A DNA stretch of 64,000 bases from Verrucomicrobiales bacterium. Its GTDB lineage: Bacteria; Verrucomicrobiota; Verrucomicrobiia; Verrucomicrobiales; V1-33. Where the stretch lies: NCBI GenBank assembly GCA_028293125.1, contig JAQGPJ010000026.1:62001-126000 (forward strand), given 5' to 3'. Positions within the stretch are counted from its first letter, which is position 1. The number at the start of each line of letters is the position of its first letter. The notes beneath the pieces were generated by a model that was not told the DNA's origin, did no database searches, and saw only the letters and a program-made list of their open reading frames with translations. The position numbers and the translations under genes are program-made. Positions 7,088 to 18,512 of this stretch are shown piece after piece.

Positions 7088-8572
7088 TCAGGCTTCCGAG
7101 GCCAGCGTCAAATCCGCCATGAACTCAGCCATGGCCCGCTCCTGTGCTGGCCCCTCGGGCAGCCGCAGCAGGTGGCTGGGGTGGTAAGTGAGGATCACAC
7201 GCTCCGCCAGTTCCGGAGCCTGCACCAAGCCACGCTCCTGAGTCACTTTCACCTCCCGGCCCAGCAGGCTGGCCGCCGCCGTGTTTCCCAGCAGCACTAG
7301 AACGGCCGGCCGCACACGAGCCAGTTCCGCCAGCACCCAGGGGCGGCACTGGCGCACCTCCTCTTTGGCGGGGGTGGCGTGCTTTCTGCGGCGTCCGGCT
7401 CCCGGAATCCATTTGAAGTGTTTCATGGCATTGGTCAGATAGACGTCACTTGGCTCAAGACCGGCCATGACCATGGCATTGCGAAGCACCTGACCGGCGG
7501 GACCGGTGAAGGGTTTGCCACAAAGGTCCTCCTGATCGCCGGGCTGCTCCCCCACCACCATCACGCGGGCATTCTCCGGCCCCTCACCGTTCACGGTCCG
7601 AGTGGCCTGCTCCCACAGCGGACAGGCGCGGCAGCAGGCAGCGGCCTTGTGCAGTTCCTCCAAGGAAAGGGCCGCCAAGTCCGAAGAAGCAGGAATAGTT
7701 TCAGCAAAAACCTCATCATGGCGCTTCAGAAGCTGGTGGATATAGGCATTCCGGGGCACCGGAGCAGCCTCCCGGCCCGGCGTTTCCAGCATGGTCTCCA
7801 TGCGGGGCTGGCTTTCCGCGATCAGTTCCGGAATGAGGCGCGCCTCCGGCAGGTTTTTCCAGTATTTGAGCGGCATCTCATTGCGCATGGCCGCCACCTT
7901 CAGGCGCGCGGGATTGAAAATGCTGCGGTAGTAGGTGCGCCACAGGGCATCCAGGTTGTCCTCCCCCGGCACTTGGTCCTTGGGCAGGCCCGGCGTGAAA
8001 TGCAGGGTTTCCCCGTCCCAATGGGCGCACTCGTCCGGAGTTAGGATGGACCAGTCCATGCCGGCGAACCGTTTCACAAAAAATGGCACCGCCAGCCGGA
8101 CACAGCGTGATGGAGGCTCAAACCATGCCACGAACTGCTCCCGGCCTGATTCCCCGTCCGTGCCCACCAGCCGGAAGCGGACAAAGGAGTGCATTTTGTG
8201 GATATCGCGCGCCACCGCTTTGCGCCAATCCTCCGCAAGGCGCACGCCGGCGTCGGTGGGCACATGCAGCAGATAGGGCTCACCGCCCCGCGTCAGCCGC
8301 CACAGCAGCCGGTAAAGCACGGCGGGCCGCCGGGGATCCACATGTGCCCACGCCATGCGCGCCAGATTCACAAAAGCGGACGGCACCCGCCAGCTCTGTT
8401 CCTCCGCAGGGGTGCCGGTGGGAATGGAGGCCTCCTCCGGCGGCTGGAAAAGGCTTTCGCCCTGAGCGGCATCCGTCCAGTCCACCTCCTCCGGTGGCAC
8501 GCCCTGGGCCATCAGCTTTCTGGCCTGATCGCGCCAGGATTCGAAACCGGGACCGAAACTGACGGAGCGCAT
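7088..8572 (-). CDS. DUF4130 - UdgX fusion: uracil-DNA-binding/excising protein
   Basis: 494 residues in two parts. Residues about 1-265 are a DUF4130 domain. Residues about 300-490 are a family 4-like uracil-DNA glycosylase with the UdgX hallmarks: cysteines C313/C314/C317 and C409 for an Fe-S cluster, motif GEQPGDQED (341-349) and the special R-loop GRRRKHATP (393-401), whose H398 corresponds to the histidine that bonds covalently to the abasic site in studied UdgX proteins. HPSHLLR (464-470) closes the active site. The longer frame to 8647 overlaps the upstream gene; the start at 8572 begins MRSVSF, as expected for DUF4130. The gene is 40 bp downstream of its radical SAM partner, so the two are probably co-transcribed and act together in base repair. 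Confidence 0.9.
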   Translation of the reverse strand: MRSVSFGPGFESWRDQARKLMAQGVPPEEVDWTDAAQGESLFQPPEEASIPTGTPAEEQSWRVPSAFVNLARMAWAHVDPRRPAVLYRLLWRLTRGGEPYLLHVPTDAGVRLAEDWRKAVARDIHKMHSFVRFRLVGTDGESGREQFVAWFEPPSRCVRLAVPFFVKRFAGMDWSILTPDECAHWDGETLHFTPGLPKDQVPGEDNLDALWRTYYRSIFNPARLKVAAMRNEMPLKYWKNLPEARLIPELIAESQPRMETMLETPGREAAPVPRNAYIHQLLKRHDEVFAETIPASSDLAALSLEELHKAAACCRACPLWEQATRTVNGEGPENARVMVVGEQPGDQEDLCGKPFTGPAGQVLRNAMVMAGLEPSDVYLTNAMKHFKWIPGAGRRRKHATPAKEEVRQCRPWVLAELARVRPAVLVLLGNTAAASLLGREVKVTQERGLVQAPELAERVILTYHPSHLLRLPEGPAQERAMAEFMADLTLASEA

Positions 8573-8612
8573 GGAGGTTTTTGTCCGGTTCCGGTGTGAA
8601 TGCGGGTCCGCG

Positions 8613-9914
8613 TCAGAACTCCCCGGAGCGGACCGCCAGAGTGTCATCAGCGGTGGGCACCGGCGTGGCGTGGAAGTTCATCTCCAGCTGCTTCAGGGGC
8701 AGGAAGCGCTGCCGCAGGGCGTCGCCGTCCAGCAGGCGGGCGCGGGGTGTGTGGTCCGCCGTCATCACGAAGGGCAGGCATTTGTTCAGATTGAGCCTCA
8801 GCCGCTTCAGGTCAGCCACATGCAGACGGCAGTGCCGGCGCGCCTCAAGGATGCGCAGCACGTTGCGGATGCCGAGCCCCGGCACCCGACAGAGCAGCTC
8901 CCTCGGGGCTTTGTTGACGTCCACCGGAAACACCGCGCGGTTTCCCAGGGCCCAAGCGAGTTTGGGATCGATCTCCAAAGGAAGCCGGGGAGCGGAGGCG
9001 GGCACCAGTTCCTCCACTTGGAAGCCGTAGAACCGGAGCAGCCAGTCGGCCTGATAAAGCCGGTGCTCGCGGAGCAGCGGCGGCGGCTTGAGGGGAAGCA
9101 GACTTGAAGGTTCGGGAATGGGGCTGAAGCCGGAGTAATACACTCTCTTCAGTTGATAGGACCGGTAAAGCTGGTCCGCCCGGCCCAGCACTGCGGCGTC
9201 GTCGGAGTCGTCGGCCCCCACCAGCATCTGGGTGCTCTGTCCGGTGGCGAAAGGCGGTCTGCGTGCAGGCCGCGCCGCTGCCGGCACCGTGCGGCCCCCG
9301 GACTCTTTGGCCTCCTCGATCCGGAGGCGGATTTTGCCCATGGCCTCCTGCGTTTTCACGAGATTCTTTTCCGGAGCCAGTTTTGCCAGTCCGGCCTCGG
9401 TGGGCAGCTCAATGTTGATGCTGATGCGGTCGGCATAGCGCCCTGCCCGCTCGATAAGCTCCTGCGAAGCCTCCGGAATGGTCTTTAAATGAATGTAGCC
9501 ACGGAACCAGTGCTCCTCCCGCAGGCGGCGCGCCACCTCGATCACCAGCTCCATGGTGTAATCCGCATTGCGGATGATGCCGGAACTCAGAAACAGCCCC
9601 TCAATGTAGTTCCGTTTGTAAAAGTCCAGCGTCAGCTGCACCACCTCCTCCACCGTGAAACGGGCGCGGGTGACGTTGCTGGACCGGCGGTTGATGCAGT
9701 AGTGGCAGTCGTAGAGGCACACATTGGTCAGCAGCACCTTGAGCAGGCTCACGCAGCGGCCATCCGGAGTGAAGCTGTGGCAAATCCCCGCCCCGCCGGT
9801 GGAGCCCACGCCCCGGCTGCCCTGCGAGTCCTTCCGAGCGGCACCGGAACTGGCGCAGGAGGCGTCGTATTTAGCCGCGTCCGCGAGGATTTGAAGTTTC
9901 CGGTCGATGTCCAT
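8613..9914 (-). CDS. putative DNA modification/repair radical SAM protein (TIGR03916 type)
   Basis: 433 residues. The radical SAM cluster motif C66-x3-C70-x2-C73 (CLYDCHYC) is intact and follows a Ser/Gly-rich N-terminus with additional cysteines. The middle is a typical radical SAM partial barrel. The C-terminal region holds a helix-hairpin-helix segment (RVPGLGIRNVLRIL), which implies DNA binding. This family occurs next to DUF4130 proteins, here fused to UdgX in the next gene 40 bp downstream. The predicted job is removal or alteration of a damaged base; the actual substrate is unknown. A low-complexity Ala/Arg/Pro insertion lies near residues 207-222. Confidence 0.9.
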   Translation of the reverse strand: MDIDRKLQILADAAKYDASCASSGAARKDSQGSRGVGSTGGAGICHSFTPDGRCVSLLKVLLTNVCLYDCHYCINRRSSNVTRARFTVEEVVQLTLDFYKRNYIEGLFLSSGIIRNADYTMELVIEVARRLREEHWFRGYIHLKTIPEASQELIERAGRYADRISINIELPTEAGLAKLAPEKNLVKTQEAMGKIRLRIEEAKESGGRTVPAAARPARRPPFATGQSTQMLVGADDSDDAAVLGRADQLYRSYQLKRVYYSGFSPIPEPSSLLPLKPPPLLREHRLYQADWLLRFYGFQVEELVPASAPRLPLEIDPKLAWALGNRAVFPVDVNKAPRELLCRVPGLGIRNVLRILEARRHCRLHVADLKRLRLNLNKCLPFVMTADHTPRARLLDGDALRQRFLPLKQLEMNFHATPVPTADDTLAVRSGEF

Positions 9915-12281: not shown

Positions 12282-15200
12282 CTATTTTTTCTGAACCTGA
12301 AGACGAAAGAACCGGGCAGTTCCAGCCGCCGCCGAGGCATCCCAAGTCTGCCACGATTTCAGGTCCGCGCTGCTTTGAACAGTGACGGTCACCGCTTCGG
12401 CATTGGGATCCAGTGGCCAGGAGATGGCCGGCTTTCCATCCACGCCCAGGGTGATCACCGGATCGCCGGGCCGGGAGGCGGCGTTGGTGTCGCTGGTGCC
12501 GAAGGCGTATTCCAGCAGGGCATTGAAACCATCACGGTCCGCATCCGCCATGGGATCTCCGGGAAAGACCACAGCGTCGGAAGTTCCAGGGCTTCCGTTC
12601 ACTTGCGTGCTTTCCCGCCAAGTGTAGTCATCCGGATCGGGGCTGGTGCTGCTGATCACCCGCACCAGCGTTTTCCCGTCGCCGTCAGTGGAGGGGATGT
12701 TGTCCTTGTATTCGAAGCGGAAGATCACCTGACCGTTCGCGGCGTAGAGCACGATGGATTCGCCCGCATTGTCCAGCGCTCCGGTAAAGTCGCCGACCAT
12801 ATTCAGGCCCGCGCCATACATGGCGGTCATGGCCGCCGCGTTTTTCACCACCAGAATCCTCGCGCCCGGAGCCAGCTGCACCCCGGAGGCGAACAGGAAG
12901 GAGAAGCCCTGGCTGTTCTCATCATCGAAGTGGCAGCCGGAGAGGTCCAGCGTGTCGGAGGTGATGTTCAGCAGCTCCACAAACTCTGTGAGATCACCGC
13001 TGCCGGGAGGGTTGTAGTTGAGCTCGCTGACCAGCAGCGTGCCTGCCGCCGCCGGGAAAACGGTGGCGGTGGCGGTGATGGTGATCGGGGCGCTGCCGGT
13101 CACATTGTCGTCGCGGTCCACCGCCTCCAGCACGTAAACCTGGGTGCCGCCGCGCACGGGGATGTCGATGCTCCATGAATCCACATCCGTCCATGTCACC
13201 GGCAGCGGGCTATTGCTGCCCCGCAGCCGGATATTGGCCACATCAATCCAGCCGTCACCCCTCACATTCGCTGTGGGCGTGGTCACCGTCAGCGGACCGG
13301 CGGTGGTGATGCGGAAAGGCACCTGGGCCACGGCGGTGTTGACCTGGGCGCGGGCGTAGTTGGCCCGGTTCCGGAGGAAGCTCAGGGAGCTGGTCATGCT
13401 GACCCCGAACCGGCTGTAGTGAGTGGCCCACCGGGTCAGATAGGCGTCATTGAAGGATTTGTTCAGGAAATCCAGCACATGTCCCCAGTAAACCCGCTTC
13501 CATGCGGGCGTGGCGATGAACTTCGCCAACTCAGGGTTTGGCGTCAGCGAGGCGCTGGGGTTCGACTGGTCGAGAAAATCGAAATCCCAGGGAATGTGCA
13601 CCATCTTTCCACCGGGTGGCGTGTAGAAAATGGCGTTGTGCTGCGAGCCGACGGCATAGGTGTCCGTGGTTCCAAAAAGAATGGGCCCGACGAGGCTGCG
13701 CAGGAAACTGTTTCCGTCCACCAGCGCATTGGTCTGGGTGAGGAAATTGGCCCCCGACTGACCGAGAGCGGTCACCGCCGGAATGATTTTGCTGTAGTCA
13801 TCCTCCTCCCGGTTGTTGCGGATCAGCCAATGCCAGCGGTAGCGCTCCTTCTGCGCCAAAGTTCCCAAGCTGCCCACGGACACGCCGGCGACGCCCTCGC
13901 CCTCCTGGGGGTACTTCAGACCTTCCGGCGTATTGCCCACCGTCTGCGTCAGGGGATAGATCAGTTCATATTTGAAAAACGTCCCGTCCGCGCCGTTTTC
14001 CCACTGGCCGTCGAGGTATTCCGAATCAAACCGGGATTTGGAGAAAATGGCGGCACCTGTGAAATTCGTTTTAGTTCCGATGATCCGCACAATGTCATCC
14101 TCGGTGGTGTAAACACCGCCTGCGGCATTCATCACCGCTTTGATAAGGATTTCGTACTGGTTCTGAGCGACCCCCCCGGAGCGGTCAATGGCCACGGTGG
14201 TATGGGTGCCCAGAAACGGCTCATCGCGGCCGAAGTCCACGATATACCCCACCCGCAGGTCGCTGCTGCGTCCATGCTCGCTGCTTTTCAGGCGGACGCT
14301 GGCATCGTAATACACCTCCTGGTCATCATAGATGAAGGTGCAGGGCAGCTTCTCATTGCTCATCTGATTGACGTTCGTGTGGATGAACGTCTGGTCCGCG
14401 GTGGTCATGACCACCCGCAGATTGTGGGGTTTGCCTCCGGTGCTCAGCGAGTAGTTCGAGGCATTGTCATTCCATGGAATGATGGCGCGGGAATCCGGCC
14501 CGGCGGCGGGGAAAAAGCTCTCCGCTCCCTGCCCGTCCACGGCCCTGACATAAAACTGCACCTTGGCCGACAGCGGCTTGCCGGGAATGACGGCGGAATA
14601 CTGCCCGCCTGACCCTGCGGTCATGGGTGTGGAGGTGAATGCCGCACCGTTGGTGGAGGTGAACAGCTCCACGGAGGCCAAGCCCTGCGGATCGTTCACG
14701 GTCACCGTGACCGTTGCCGGGGCATTCGCCGCCGGCAGCACCGGGCTGTGGGAAAGATTCGCGAAGGTCGGCCCGGCATTGGCAACACGATTGGAGTTCA
14801 CCGCGCCTGGAGTGCCGCCGCTGTCGGGGGCGCTCAGCAACGTGGTCTGCGCCAGGCGGTTCAGATAACACCGGGTGTTCAGCTTGTTGGAACCCTTCAG
14901 CCACCGGGCCCGCAGGCTGATTCTGTAGGTTCTGGCGGCATTCAGGGTCACATAGGATGTGCCCACGCGGAAGGTGGTCTCCGCGTGGTTGCTCATGTGC
15001 TCGGTCGGACCCACCGCTTTAAGCTTCAGCACTTTGTTGCCGGGATTGTCCGGATCGTCCACCACCATGCTGTGGCAGTGGTTGCCCACCAGTCTCCACT
15101 TCCCGGCGGCACCGGGAGTACCGGCGGTGTCATTGGTGAAGCTGCCGTTCTGAATCAGCTCGCGGTTGGTGCCGGCGGGATCCTCGATCACACTGACATC

Positions 15201-18005
15201 GTCAATGAGCACCTCCCCTTCAGAAAGCAGTCCCATGATGAACTCATTGTAATAAGTGGGGTCGTTTCCGATATTGGCTCCGGTGCCCTGATAGGTGATG
15301 GTTTCCCACTTCCCGCGAGCCGTCTCATTGCTTTCGCTCCACGACTCAGCCTTGCTGTTGTCGGCGTTGGGATCCTTCAGCTCCAGACTGCATCCGGAGC
15401 CGTCCGCCCATTCCGCCCAGCGGCCACTGTCAAAATAGGACACCTCATCCACCACATTGTCCGCCGCGTCCCGCAGGCGGATCATCTCCCCCTTCCCTGA
15501 CAGGCTGCCACTCCAGGGCCCCAGGGCCGGAACACCGGGATGGGCGGCGGCGAAGGACGCCATGTCCCCCGTGATCACCAGATAACCATTCGCGGGCACA
15601 ACCGTGCCTCCGGGGAAAAGGTAATCCACCCCGTCGGAGAACTTCCAGTCGCCAATATTCACCGGTGCGCCGCTTTTGTTGTGAAGCTCCAGCCACTGCT
15701 CCGCGGAGCCGCTGCGGGATTTGTAGAAAATCTCATTGATGACCAAGGCATCGCTGACGGTGGTGACATTCGGCGAGCCGAAGCTCGGGGCGTCCGGATG
15801 CCCCCATCCGCCGTCCGGCGTCAGACCCCGCAGCCGTCCCGTGACCACCCGGGAGTCCGCAACCTCATAACCGGTGCTCCCCACGAGGCTGAGCCTTTCC
15901 CCATCCGCCGGGGTGAAGCCCAGCGCCGTGGTGTCCAGCACCAGGCGCGCTCCGGCGGCCAGTGCGGAGGCAGGCAGCGGCACCGTTCTGCCGGCGCTGG
16001 TGGTCAATGTCCAGCCCGTCAGATTGAGCACCGAGGCCGAGGCGTTCGTCAGCTCCACTTTGAAGGCGGGGTCAACCGCTCCGGAGAGTTCACTGAAAAC
16101 CAGTGTGGGCGCGGTGTCCGCGGGAGGGGCCAAGGTTTCCACCACCACCAGATCCGCTCCAAAAAGGAGGTCATTCTCCCCGGCCGCCTGGCTCACCTCC
16201 ACCGACAGCACATTTTTCCCATGCAGCAGCTGAGTCCCAGGCAGGGGAACCGCCGCCGTGGGAAAGGAGGCATTGGGGATGGCCGACACCGCCGGCACAT
16301 TGTTGCGGTAAATCTCGACACCGTTCAGGTAATACACCGCTCCGTCGTCCGCCACCGGCCACAGTTCCAAGGAAGCCCGGGTGGGATTTCCGGTGTAATT
16401 GAAGGTGGTGCGGAAATACCGGGGCTCCGGTCCCGCCTGCACCGTGGTCGTCACCACCGGGCTGGGCAGGGGCGGAGTCACCGGACCGCTGACAGCCTCG
16501 GCGGTGGGAGCAGTGAGGGGAGTATAGGCGCCGGCGGTAAGTCCGGCAATGGACCGCGCCGGAAGTGCCTTGGACCACACCGCCACATCCGAAATGCGCC
16601 CTTTGAAGCATTCGGCGCTGCCCAGCGGATCACCTCCGATGAAAAAAGGCATCGTGCCTGTCTGGGGGGCGCTGACCCGCTTGGTGCCGTTGAATTTTCC
16701 ATCGCGGTAGGCGGTGAGCACCTCCTGCTTTTTCACGAAGGCCAGATGGTGCCAGACACCGGTGTCACTCAGGGGAGTGGTGAAAAACGCGGTATTCTCC
16801 ACTCCGCTGCGGGTATAGGTGGCGCCCGTGGCGGACATTTTGAGATAGTCCAGCGGAGTGAAACTGCCTGATCCGTCAAACTTCGAGCGGTTGCCCAGAA
16901 TGACCGCCGTTCCCTGCTCCACCGGCCCGCTGTTGGGATCGCCCGCCGTGACCGCCAAGGGATCAGCCCCGCTTTTCACCCAGCAGACCCACGTGAAATC
17001 CGTGGTCAGACTTTGCTTGGGAATAAAGGCGTCGGCAATGCTGATGCGGTCATCCACCCCGTCGAATTCCGCCACCTGCCCGCGCACCGGGTCATTCACC
17101 CAGGCCGCCCCGTTCATCAGCGAACCCGCCGGCTTTCCCTCCACGGAATTCGCGGCGGCCACGCCCTCCGCCTCATTCAGCCTCCACCATCCAAGGATAT
17201 TGGTGGCCGGACCGCTGAGCGCCGGCTGCACGGCGTCCGCCGAGGCTCCGCCGCCCGTGAAAAGCCCTGCCCCTGAGGACCAGGCGGTGTCATCGAATCC
17301 GACCTCCCTCCAATTGGCCGGCGGGGCCGTGCCGTTGTCCGAGTAGGCCCAAACCGCGCCGGTGGGCACCATCCGGACCCTGGTGGGAGCGGTGCCGGCT
17401 TCCAGGAAATTTGCCCGGCCCGGAGTGCCGCCGATCTCATTGCTGGCGGTCCACAGCTGCGGATTGTCCCCGGCACTGGCCTTCCGCCGCGCCAAGGTGA
17501 CACCGCCGCCGTCCGGGCCCACCGGCCATTCCCCGCTCTCGGAGTACTCCACCTCATCCATGATCCGTCCGGTCTGATTCACCAGTCGGATGCGGTCACC
17601 CGCGTTGTTGAGGCTGCCGGTGAAGGGGCCCATAGCCCCCGCAATCTGCGAGGGTGCCGCCGCGATGACCACATAGGCACCGCCGGGGAGAATGAAATTG
17701 GGAGGGAACTGATAGTTGATGCCGCCGGTCAGCGCCCAGTTGGAAAGGTTGACATCCACTCCCTGCAGGCTGCGCAGTTCCACCCATTCCGTCTGATTGT
17801 CACCGGGGGGATGGTACTGGATTTCATTGATGACCACCACACTGTCATACGCTGCCGCCTGTGCGGAGCGGGGCGCTGCGGCCAGCGCCAAAGTCACAGC
17901 GGATAAAATTCGGGCGGACAGGGAGAGGGAAAGACGCGGCAAGGGGTTGGGCACGGGAATCATAGCCAGTGGGGGGGGCGGCAGAAGGGGGGGACGAACG
18001 GACAT
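12282..18005 (-). CDS. giant exported lamin-tail / CotH-kinase-like surface protein
   Basis: 1,907 residues from the ATG at 18005. The frame is open a further 168 codons upstream, but that part overlaps a plus-strand gene and looks non-coding. Order: signal peptide (ends about SAQAA), lamin-tail domain (VVINEIQYHP), concanavalin/LamG-like domain (GWWRLNEAEG onward), a beta-sandwich with VYYLNGVEI, a second and a third lamin-tail domain (LVINEIFYKS), a carbohydrate-binding-like region with EVLIDDVSV, a short Ig/Fn3-like region, a CotH-like domain ending HIPWDFDFLD, a fourth lamin-tail domain (LLVSELNYNP), and a calcium-loop-like tail (DADRDGFNALLEYAFGT). CotH proteins are atypical kinases of secreted proteins. 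The probable location is the cell surface or outside; the target is unknown. Confidence 0.85.
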   Translation of the reverse strand: MSVRPPLLPPPPLAMIPVPNPLPRLSLSLSARILSAVTLALAAAPRSAQAAAYDSVVVINEIQYHPPGDNQTEWVELRSLQGVDVNLSNWALTGGINYQFPPNFILPGGAYVVIAAAPSQIAGAMGPFTGSLNNAGDRIRLVNQTGRIMDEVEYSESGEWPVGPDGGGVTLARRKASAGDNPQLWTASNEIGGTPGRANFLEAGTAPTRVRMVPTGAVWAYSDNGTAPPANWREVGFDDTAWSSGAGLFTGGGASADAVQPALSGPATNILGWWRLNEAEGVAAANSVEGKPAGSLMNGAAWVNDPVRGQVAEFDGVDDRISIADAFIPKQSLTTDFTWVCWVKSGADPLAVTAGDPNSGPVEQGTAVILGNRSKFDGSGSFTPLDYLKMSATGATYTRSGVENTAFFTTPLSDTGVWHHLAFVKKQEVLTAYRDGKFNGTKRVSAPQTGTMPFFIGGDPLGSAECFKGRISDVAVWSKALPARSIAGLTAGAYTPLTAPTAEAVSGPVTPPLPSPVVTTTVQAGPEPRYFRTTFNYTGNPTRASLELWPVADDGAVYYLNGVEIYRNNVPAVSAIPNASFPTAAVPLPGTQLLHGKNVLSVEVSQAAGENDLLFGADLVVVETLAPPADTAPTLVFSELSGAVDPAFKVELTNASASVLNLTGWTLTTSAGRTVPLPASALAAGARLVLDTTALGFTPADGERLSLVGSTGYEVADSRVVTGRLRGLTPDGGWGHPDAPSFGSPNVTTVSDALVINEIFYKSRSGSAEQWLELHNKSGAPVNIGDWKFSDGVDYLFPGGTVVPANGYLVITGDMASFAAAHPGVPALGPWSGSLSGKGEMIRLRDAADNVVDEVSYFDSGRWAEWADGSGCSLELKDPNADNSKAESWSESNETARGKWETITYQGTGANIGNDPTYYNEFIMGLLSEGEVLIDDVSVIEDPAGTNRELIQNGSFTNDTAGTPGAAGKWRLVGNHCHSMVVDDPDNPGNKVLKLKAVGPTEHMSNHAETTFRVGTSYVTLNAARTYRISLRARWLKGSNKLNTRCYLNRLAQTTLLSAPDSGGTPGAVNSNRVANAGPTFANLSHSPVLPAANAPATVTVTVNDPQGLASVELFTSTNGAAFTSTPMTAGSGGQYSAVIPGKPLSAKVQFYVRAVDGQGAESFFPAAGPDSRAIIPWNDNASNYSLSTGGKPHNLRVVMTTADQTFIHTNVNQMSNEKLPCTFIYDDQEVYYDASVRLKSSEHGRSSDLRVGYIVDFGRDEPFLGTHTTVAIDRSGGVAQNQYEILIKAVMNAAGGVYTTEDDIVRIIGTKTNFTGAAIFSKSRFDSEYLDGQWENGADGTFFKYELIYPLTQTVGNTPEGLKYPQEGEGVAGVSVGSLGTLAQKERYRWHWLIRNNREEDDYSKIIPAVTALGQSGANFLTQTNALVDGNSFLRSLVGPILFGTTDTYAVGSQHNAIFYTPPGGKMVHIPWDFDFLDQSNPSASLTPNPELAKFIATPAWKRVYWGHVLDFLNKSFNDAYLTRWATHYSRFGVSMTSSLSFLRNRANYARAQVNTAVAQVPFRITTAGPLTVTTPTANVRGDGWIDVANIRLRGSNSPLPVTWTDVDSWSIDIPVRGGTQVYVLEAVDRDDNVTGSAPITITATATVFPAAAGTLLVSELNYNPPGSGDLTEFVELLNITSDTLDLSGCHFDDENSQGFSFLFASGVQLAPGARILVVKNAAAMTAMYGAGLNMVGDFTGALDNAGESIVLYAANGQVIFRFEYKDNIPSTDGDGKTLVRVISSTSPDPDDYTWRESTQVNGSPGTSDAVVFPGDPMADADRDGFNALLEYAFGTSDTNAASRPGDPVITLGVDGKPAISWPLDPNAEAVTVTVQSSADLKSWQTWDASAAAGTARFFRLQVQKK

Positions 18006-18164
18006 GACAGCCCGTGCCTTCCAACATGAGGTTTTAAAGTTTGCCGGGTAATCCAGCCTCAATGCAAGCTTATTCACCCCGCAGACCCGGTTTTCCACTA
18101 CTTGCCGGATGAAAAACCCGGATGCATGGGGGAGTTCCCTACCCTGCCTCTGCGTTTCTTCCCT

Positions 18165-18488
18165 ATGAATCCCACCGCCCCCGTGCACTTTCTTCGTCGG
18201 ACTGCCCAGTTTGAGGGTCTGTCCTTTCTGGTGCTCCTGTTCATCGCCATGCCGCTCAAATACCTCGCCGGCCAGCCCATGGCAGTGAAGGTTTTTGGCA
18301 TGATTCACGGCGTGCTTTTTGTGATCCTCTGCCTTGCCCTGCTGCGGGCCCATCTGGCGGCGCGGTGGGCCGCCGGGCGCAGTGTGCTGGTTTTTGCATC
18401 CTCCCTGATTCCCTTTGGGCCAATGCTGATTGACCGCCGTCTCCGCGCCTGGGAGGCCGAAGCCGCCTCCGGAAAGCCCCGGGCCTGA
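18165..18488 (+). CDS. DUF3817 family small membrane protein
   Basis: 107 residues from the ATG at 18165; a longer frame to 18102 has a charged leader unlike the family. The FRRTAQFEG-like opening (LRRTAQFEGLSF) followed by two or three hydrophobic helices (about 20-33, 42-60 and 72-88) matches DUF3817 (YdzA-like) integral membrane proteins of unknown function. It diverges from the giant LTD/CotH gene (160 bp between starts) and converges on the TPM-like membrane gene, with only 24 bp between stop codons. No partner gene is evident. Confidence 0.8.
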   Translation: MNPTAPVHFLRRTAQFEGLSFLVLLFIAMPLKYLAGQPMAVKVFGMIHGVLFVILCLALLRAHLAARWAAGRSVLVFASSLIPFGPMLIDRRLRAWEAEAASGKPRA

Positions 18489-18512
18489 TGCCGCACGTGG
18501 ATCCTTCACAGC

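Follow-up and report, generated by a model that had tools for sequence, protein, structure and literature searches.

A two-gene operon with a fused UdgX domain

The 64,000-nucleotide (nt) stretch of DNA analyzed here, referred to as the window, comes from a Verrucomicrobiales bacterium (GCA_028293125.1, contig JAQGPJ010000026.1, positions 62,001 to 126,000) and carries on its minus strand a gene for a radical S-adenosylmethionine (SAM) protein, followed by a gene in which the domain DUF4130 is fused to UdgX, a uracil-DNA glycosylase (UDG). The radical SAM gene (8613..9914, read from 9914 to 8613; 433 amino acids) matches the NCBIfam model TIGR03916 with 550.2 bits (cut-off, 343.5). The fusion gene (7088..8572, read from 8572 to 7088), delimited by its open reading frame (ORF) and its profile matches, encodes 494 amino acids when read from the ATG at 8572, which lies 40 nt behind the stop codon of the radical SAM gene. 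A longer alternative start, the ATG at 8647, would make the two genes overlap by 35 nt and shift the residue called H398 below to H423; the numbering used here is consistent with the ATG at 8572. DUF4130 occupies 7841..8545 on the minus strand (TIGR03915, 194.4 bits; cut-off, 112.25), and UdgX with its linker occupies 7103..7837 on the same strand (TIGR03914, 254.6 bits; cut-off, 189.95).

All three NCBIfam models are thus matched above their curated cut-offs, as are the Pfam families DUF4130, UDG, and Radical_SAM, each above its own, and the window shows the gene order of its relatives with no departure from the NCBIfam set. The names of these models (SAM_7_link_chp and rSAM_link_UDG) imply that the link of the three was known to the model authors, although they are names only, with predicted functions. 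A sequence-only reading of this DNA had described UdgX and DUF4130 as joined in one protein directly downstream of the radical SAM gene and had placed them in a predicted, unproven repair system; the profile scores and the 40-nt spacing bear out the layout, and the NCBIfam set agrees with the assignment. The window holds a genuine, intact operon of a known, predicted SOS-linked kind.

Relatives were collected by a genome scan with a radical SAM alignment, from which the best 80 of at least 593 were retained, two viral loci being counted outside the 80. Two loci (L035 and L109) end right behind the radical SAM gene and were excluded from the DUF4130 counts, leaving 78 readable relatives. In all 78, a DUF4130 gene comes next on the same strand, in the same order as in the window, and in 69 it starts no more than 30 nt from the radical SAM stop. 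UdgX is fused to DUF4130 in 66 of these loci (one of them cut by a contig end) and is missing from 11, and in the remaining one (L087) the gene is split between frames. The adjacency of the radical SAM and DUF4130 genes is far above chance, and the genetic link that had been proposed between the two genes of the window holds across its relatives.

A constant pair and an optional module

We surveyed 355 genomes from two phyla, 155 from the phylum of the window and 200 from that of Pseudoxanthomonas (G159), and scored a family as present when it matched above its curated NCBIfam cut-off. In the window's phylum, TIGR03916 is present in 9 genomes and TIGR03915 in the identical 9; in the second phylum, both are found in the same 31. 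The radical SAM protein and DUF4130 therefore occur together in 40 of 40 genomes and never apart, counts that are drawn from genomes related to one another and do not represent independent events. UdgX (TIGR03914) is present in 5 of the 155 genomes, among which only that of the window also has the pair, and in 29 of the 200, 23 with the pair and 6 without it; 8 genomes of the second phylum carry the pair and no UdgX. Over both phyla, all three families coincide in 24 genomes, the pair lacks UdgX in 16 of 40, and UdgX lacks the pair in 10 of 34. In two further genomes, G035 and G241, DUF4130 gives a weak match that stays under the cut-off, and no radical SAM match reaches its cut-off. Caulobacter vibrioides, a control genome, matches all three families. 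Almost every genome in the sample of the first phylum has another gene of the UDG superfamily, with 149 of 155 matching TIGR03914 at E ≤ 0.001.

The individual loci give the same picture. Ten of the 11 DUF4130-only loci belong to genomes with no UdgX above cut-off anywhere, and the eleventh genome, G159, has a separate UdgX. Mapped onto a radical SAM tree with 88 rows, UdgX presence switches 12 to 13 times, and at least 11 of these changes are forced by well-supported branches. The nearest relative of the window, L034 (77% identical), lacks UdgX, as does L036, and the window has it. Four stretches with a solitary UdgX gene were examined (G241, G221, G225, and G341), and three of them (loci L120 to L122 from G241, G221, and G225, respectively) start with a relic of the DUF4130 tail, which in G221 is broken across frames and in G241 is preceded just upstream by a GTTC-N7-GTTC box. 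G325 is the reverse case, with an intact radical SAM match and a UdgX match broken at the expected motif A. Either part can therefore decay while the other persists, and the radical SAM/DUF4130-UdgX operon can leave a solitary UdgX gene as its remnant.

Since the pair always occurs together and UdgX comes and goes, the radical SAM protein is the partner of DUF4130 and has no dedicated role in releasing UdgX crosslinks. The strongest new inference of this work is that the radical SAM enzyme works for DUF4130 and that UdgX, as a module for covalent capture, is optional. With the pair as a conserved core, UdgX as an optional part, solitary UdgX genes as possible relics, and an operon that in one lineage runs into dnaE2 (see below), the job of the pair becomes testable.

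Active site and putative iron-sulfur site of the fused UdgX

The UdgX domain carries the following features, all on the minus strand: motif A, GEQPG from residue 341 (7538..7552, with E342 and Q343); the R-loop RRRKH with the putative nucleophile H398 (7379..7393); motif B, HPSHLLR from H464 to R470 (7163..7183), with H at the fourth position where S or A is expected; and the putative iron-sulfur (Fe-S) ligands C314, C317, H385, and C409 (7346..7633). In phmmer searches, GRRRKH398 of the window aligned with the GGKRRIH109 loop of the structures of Mycobacterium smegmatis UdgX (MsmUdgX; E ~ 1e-49). The AlphaFold2 model of the fusion (predicted local distance difference test [pLDDT], 91.8; predicted template modeling score [pTM], 0.62) overlays in its UdgX part on two MsmUdgX structures, with a Z of 30.3 for the complex with single-stranded DNA (6iod), a Z of 30.4 for a crosslinked mutant (6l6s), and a root mean square deviation of 1.8 over 199 residues. 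By alignment, E342, Q343, H398, and H464 correspond to the covalent active site of MsmUdgX, and this, together with the overlay of the domain model, places H398 in the predicted active site. The covalent-type R-loop that had been read from the sequence accordingly stands after alignment with a characterized UdgX, and so do the Fe-S cysteines, as C314, C317, and C409 with H385 fall at the putative [4Fe-4S] ligand positions of UdgX, H385 standing where a family-4 UDG has its third cysteine. PMC10359453 reports a bond between H109 of MsmUdgX and the C1' atom of the sugar, and PMC10776899 reports that the enzyme captures uracil-DNA and not a ready-made apurinic/apyrimidinic (AP) site.

Conservation was assessed in 63 fused rows, which comprise the window plus 62 of 65 fused genes that are complete (L047, L059, and L076 were excluded; L070, cut by a contig end, and the split L087 are not among the 65). 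E342, Q343, N381, H385, R396, H398, H464, and R470 are invariant, as is the GEQPG motif. The three Fe-S cysteines are kept in 58 rows, and the other five (L054, L069, L096, L099, and L105) lose all three, as does L059 outside the alignment. Because these cysteine-less rows, all with an intact covalent site, fall at two places on the radical SAM tree (L054/L099/L059 and L069/L096/L105), two losses of the Fe-S site of the fused UdgX are probable, each with the covalent site retained. Such domains are natural tests of the role of the cluster. The window UdgX thus resembles MsmUdgX in its R-loop histidine, GEQPG and HPSxLLR motifs, Fe-S positions, and fold; unlike MsmUdgX, it is fused behind DUF4130 and adjoins a radical SAM gene, and some of its fused relatives dispense with the Fe-S cysteines while keeping the nucleophile. 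The other UDG of the window's genome (L002, G000:C92:104279-104878; GEAPG motif) appears to be without the CxxC pair that family-4 enzymes carry at the N terminus.

The radical SAM protein and DUF4130

The radical SAM [4Fe-4S] motif, C66-X3-C70-X2-C73 (9696..9719, minus strand), is invariant in 80 of 80 rows and in 9 of 9 more divergent ones, and the same holds for C20, C45, and C54 (9753..9857, minus strand), a candidate site for an auxiliary metal or cluster. The AlphaFold2 model has a pLDDT of 87.2, with residues 11 to 60 only at 45 to 74, and an N-terminal auxiliary cluster, which would lie in this low-confidence part, is suggested by the conserved cysteines. A helix-hairpin-helix-like stretch at residues 331 to 360 (8835..8924, minus strand) reaches 17.5 bits with Pfam HHH_3, below its cut-off of 27. 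Among the fold matches listed, the nearest solved structures are HydE (Z, 16.4), lipoyl synthase (16.2), and biotin synthase (15.8), with HydG also among the leading folds, and some lipoyl synthase matches extend back to residues 1 to 3. Spore photoproduct lyase (SplB) is absent among these listed matches, which leave room for unlisted families. The window protein resembles SplB as a radical SAM protein with a predicted role in DNA repair and differs from it in that NCBIfam assigns it to TIGR03916; the term SplB-like, applied to the radical SAM partner in PMC3765255, contrasts with the nearest listed folds found here.

A further radical SAM family, more distantly related, scores 245 to 297 bits, below the TIGR03916 cut-off, in 25 of the 155 genomes of the window's phylum (G150, G142, G009, and 22 others; loci L012 to L032). 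Its N terminus reads like YDLACAC, and none of its 25 genomes has a DUF4130 match. At L021, the gene of this family adjoins a gene for a family-4-type UDG.

In DUF4130, D107, H125, R132, W150, R168, W174, F219-N220-P221, R223, W238, and P242-E243 are found in 74 of 74 rows. A fold search with the whole fusion filled the matches listed with UDG entries. PMC3765255 calls the domain a predicted mutagenesis-related enzyme and notes its association with UDGs and radical SAM proteins as well as with genes for SOS mutagenesis.

SOS-type boxes and mutasome genes around the pair

The 250 nt before the radical SAM gene were screened in 78 relatives. GTTC-N7-GTTC boxes, which are of the alphaproteobacterial type, occur in 54 of these stretches (background, 3.1%), and CTG[T/G]-N8-10-[A/C]CAG occurs in 11 further ones (background, 5.5%), giving a LexA-type box of either kind in 65 of 78; the strict CTGT...ACAG-type form is found in 8 (background, 0.2%). 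Five of the 11 DUF4130-only loci also carry a GTTC-N7-GTTC or CTGT...ACAG-type box, so the SOS-type box is independent of UdgX. In the window's phylum, TGTTC-N4-GAACA sites were first chosen by eye, and a rule-based recount (at most 1 mismatch, at most 28 nt from the start) found them in 7 of 16 rows, the window being one of the 16. The genome of the window contains four perfect TGTTC-N4-GAACA palindromes and none of the reversed control pattern. One of these four stands at the start of a gene of the PA0069 radical SAM family (L117, G000:C21:20285).

We take COG4277 to be the radical SAM/helix-hairpin-helix family of the window. PMC8565304 reports a two-gene operon of a UDG (COG1573) and COG4277 in the SOS networks of Bacteroidetes and mentions earlier reports of SOS regulation of a UDG-based system in Verrucomicrobia and Alphaproteobacteria, citing Erill 2016 as the source for Verrucomicrobia. 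The present operon resembles the one in that paper in combining a UDG gene with a second gene and in having SOS boxes upstream in relatives, and it differs in that the window copy has no recognizable box. SOS control is thus already known for such operons; judged from upstream motifs, it appears to be recovered here in relatives and is not supported for the window's copy.

Error-prone replication genes recur beside the pair. Among the neighbor clusters of 82 loci, dnaE2 (12) and imuB (11) are the two largest recurrent ones; imuA reaches 8, a count equaled by an unrelated ABC-transporter-like cluster. At least one of the three genes is present in 13 of the 82 loci, in four lineages; among the 57 loci whose 6-kilobase (kb) flanks are complete, the count is 11. 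Three dnaE2 copies were confirmed as error-prone DNA polymerase by profile search, and one ImuB copy matched Pol IV models weakly. A second ImuB copy and the ImuA sequence matched no model in that profile search, and their names are putative assignments from the sequence. Seven Sphingomonadales loci (L049, L063, L065, L082, L085, L095, and L106) have the order imuB, box, radical SAM, fusion, and dnaE2 on one strand, and their dnaE2 frame overlaps the fusion stop or starts within about 50 nt of it. At L091, the dnaE2 part is present and no imuB was detected.

A proposed damage-processing pair with a covalent uracil-capture module

We consider it probable, short of being firmly established, that DUF4130 and the radical SAM protein form the obligate halves of an enzyme system acting on DNA damage during the SOS response and that UdgX is a separable module for covalent capture of uracil. 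In the family at large, the lifting of LexA repression would lead to expression of the pair, which some lineages encode together with the error-prone DnaE2. The radical SAM half may bind DNA via its C-terminal helix-hairpin-helix and use S-adenosylmethionine radical chemistry to act on a lesion or on a product derived from one, and DUF4130 would serve as a recognition subunit or a second catalytic subunit. The sequence-only reading had suggested a modified base as a candidate substrate of the radical SAM enzyme. Where UdgX is present, it would remove uracil from DNA with H398 staying bonded to C1' of the sugar, and such crosslinking is predicted for the window protein as well. The bond may shield the site and pin DUF4130, and through DUF4130 the radical enzyme, at uracil-DNA during SOS replication. 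The crosslink would be cleared by proteolysis or RecA-dependent repair, with no obligatory radical SAM step; clearing by RecA-dependent pathways or proteases has been proposed for mycobacterial UdgX in PMC10359453, where the cellular role of UdgX is described as open. Nothing in how the parts evolved requires the UdgX crosslink to lead on to radical chemistry, although such a step is possible.

Several observations weigh against this interpretation. UdgX accompanies the pair in the second phylum more often than expected by chance (23 of 29 UdgX genomes), and therefore some functional tie exists between them. The radical SAM tree contains two long-branch rows. The best site before the window's operon has 3 mismatches to TGTTC-N4-GAACA and is no better than those of 44.5% of random stretches, and an inspection of the window around the operon, covering 2.7 to 18.5 kb, identified neither imu genes nor dnaE2. 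A search of the DUF4130 sequence profile against the PDB yielded no relative, the model with its pTM of 0.62 does not fix how DUF4130 and UdgX are placed relative to each other, and we know of no lesion, substrate, or product for TIGR03916 or DUF4130.

Other explanations were weighed against the same data. One is a sequential pathway, in which the radical SAM/DUF4130 pair converts a damaged base to uracil or a uracil-like base that UdgX then excises and caps. The direct fusion of a UDG to the pair within one SOS-type unit in most relatives would fit such a pathway, and the many losses of UdgX with the pair kept speak against it, although not decisively, as the other UDGs present in 149 of 155 genomes could substitute; we regard this pathway as unlikely. 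Similarly improbable is that the unit acts as a shield of uracil or AP sites in single-stranded DNA, protecting gaps and channeling them to the ImuB-DnaE2 mutasome with no need for radical SAM base chemistry. The proximity of imuA, imuB, or dnaE2 in four lineages, with dnaE2 directly behind the fusion in one, favors a shield, and AP-site protection is a role proposed for UdgX (PMC10359453); however, most loci are not beside a mutasome, and the invariance of the radical SAM cluster motif and of three further cysteines argues for real chemistry.

It is more doubtful still that catalysis deliberately passes through the covalent UdgX-DNA bond as one of its stages, a scheme in which UdgX would hold the deoxyribose of the uracil site, the tethered DUF4130 and radical SAM enzyme would act on this sugar or a neighbor in an SOS gap, the processed site would pass to DnaE2, and UdgX-less pairs would perform the same chemistry untethered. 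We give equally little credence to the idea that the operon of the window organism is a horizontally shared copy that is no longer SOS-regulated and is of little use. The missing LexA box agrees with it, as do the four nearest tree rows by path, three of which are UdgX-less and one unreadable, but both frames are intact with the family-invariant residues, and the radical SAM gene is common to close Verrucomicrobiaceae kin.

Least probable is the suggestion of the sequence-only reading that the radical SAM enzyme releases the covalent UdgX-DNA intermediate, by cleaving or resolving it: the shared operon, the fusion in 66 of 78 readable relatives, and the enrichment of UdgX with the pair in the second phylum are in its favor, but the radical SAM protein follows DUF4130 in 40 of 40 genomes and UdgX in only 24 of 40, the pair lacks UdgX in the other 16 and in 10 of 11 genomes with DUF4130-only loci, UdgX lacks the pair in 10 of 34 genomes (three with a DUF4130 relic), and for mycobacterial UdgX, clearing by RecA-dependent pathways or proteases has been proposed (PMC10359453). 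A release factor was rejected as the main explanation on co-occurrence.

No paper joining UdgX with DUF4130 or UdgX with a radical SAM protein was found, in a literature search that left subscription papers mostly outside its scope, and the same search found no tested function for the radical SAM/DUF4130 pair.

Mobile elements and surroundings

No PADLOC-DB family matched either protein at E ≤ 0.01, and a role as an antiphage defense system was rejected for want of any such match. Radical SAM relatives are found in 158 plasmid records of PLSDB, mostly of Phaeobacter, Paracoccus, and Azospirillum, 142 of which are called nonmobilizable. A phage origin was considered as well: two viral contigs carry radical SAM relatives, one of which (L114) stands beside Sphingomonas on the radical SAM tree. 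Phage records gave two weak DUF4130 matches, and matches in PHROGs were only weak. A distant DUF4130 gene lies near the end of the record of Bacteroides phage BKO1-TP1 (PQ571268.1:45666-46199) and may be phage-borne or packaged host DNA. In the window itself, an ORF of 2,075 amino acids lies on the minus strand at 12282-18509, which reads like a putative secreted protein of the lamin-tail/CotH type.

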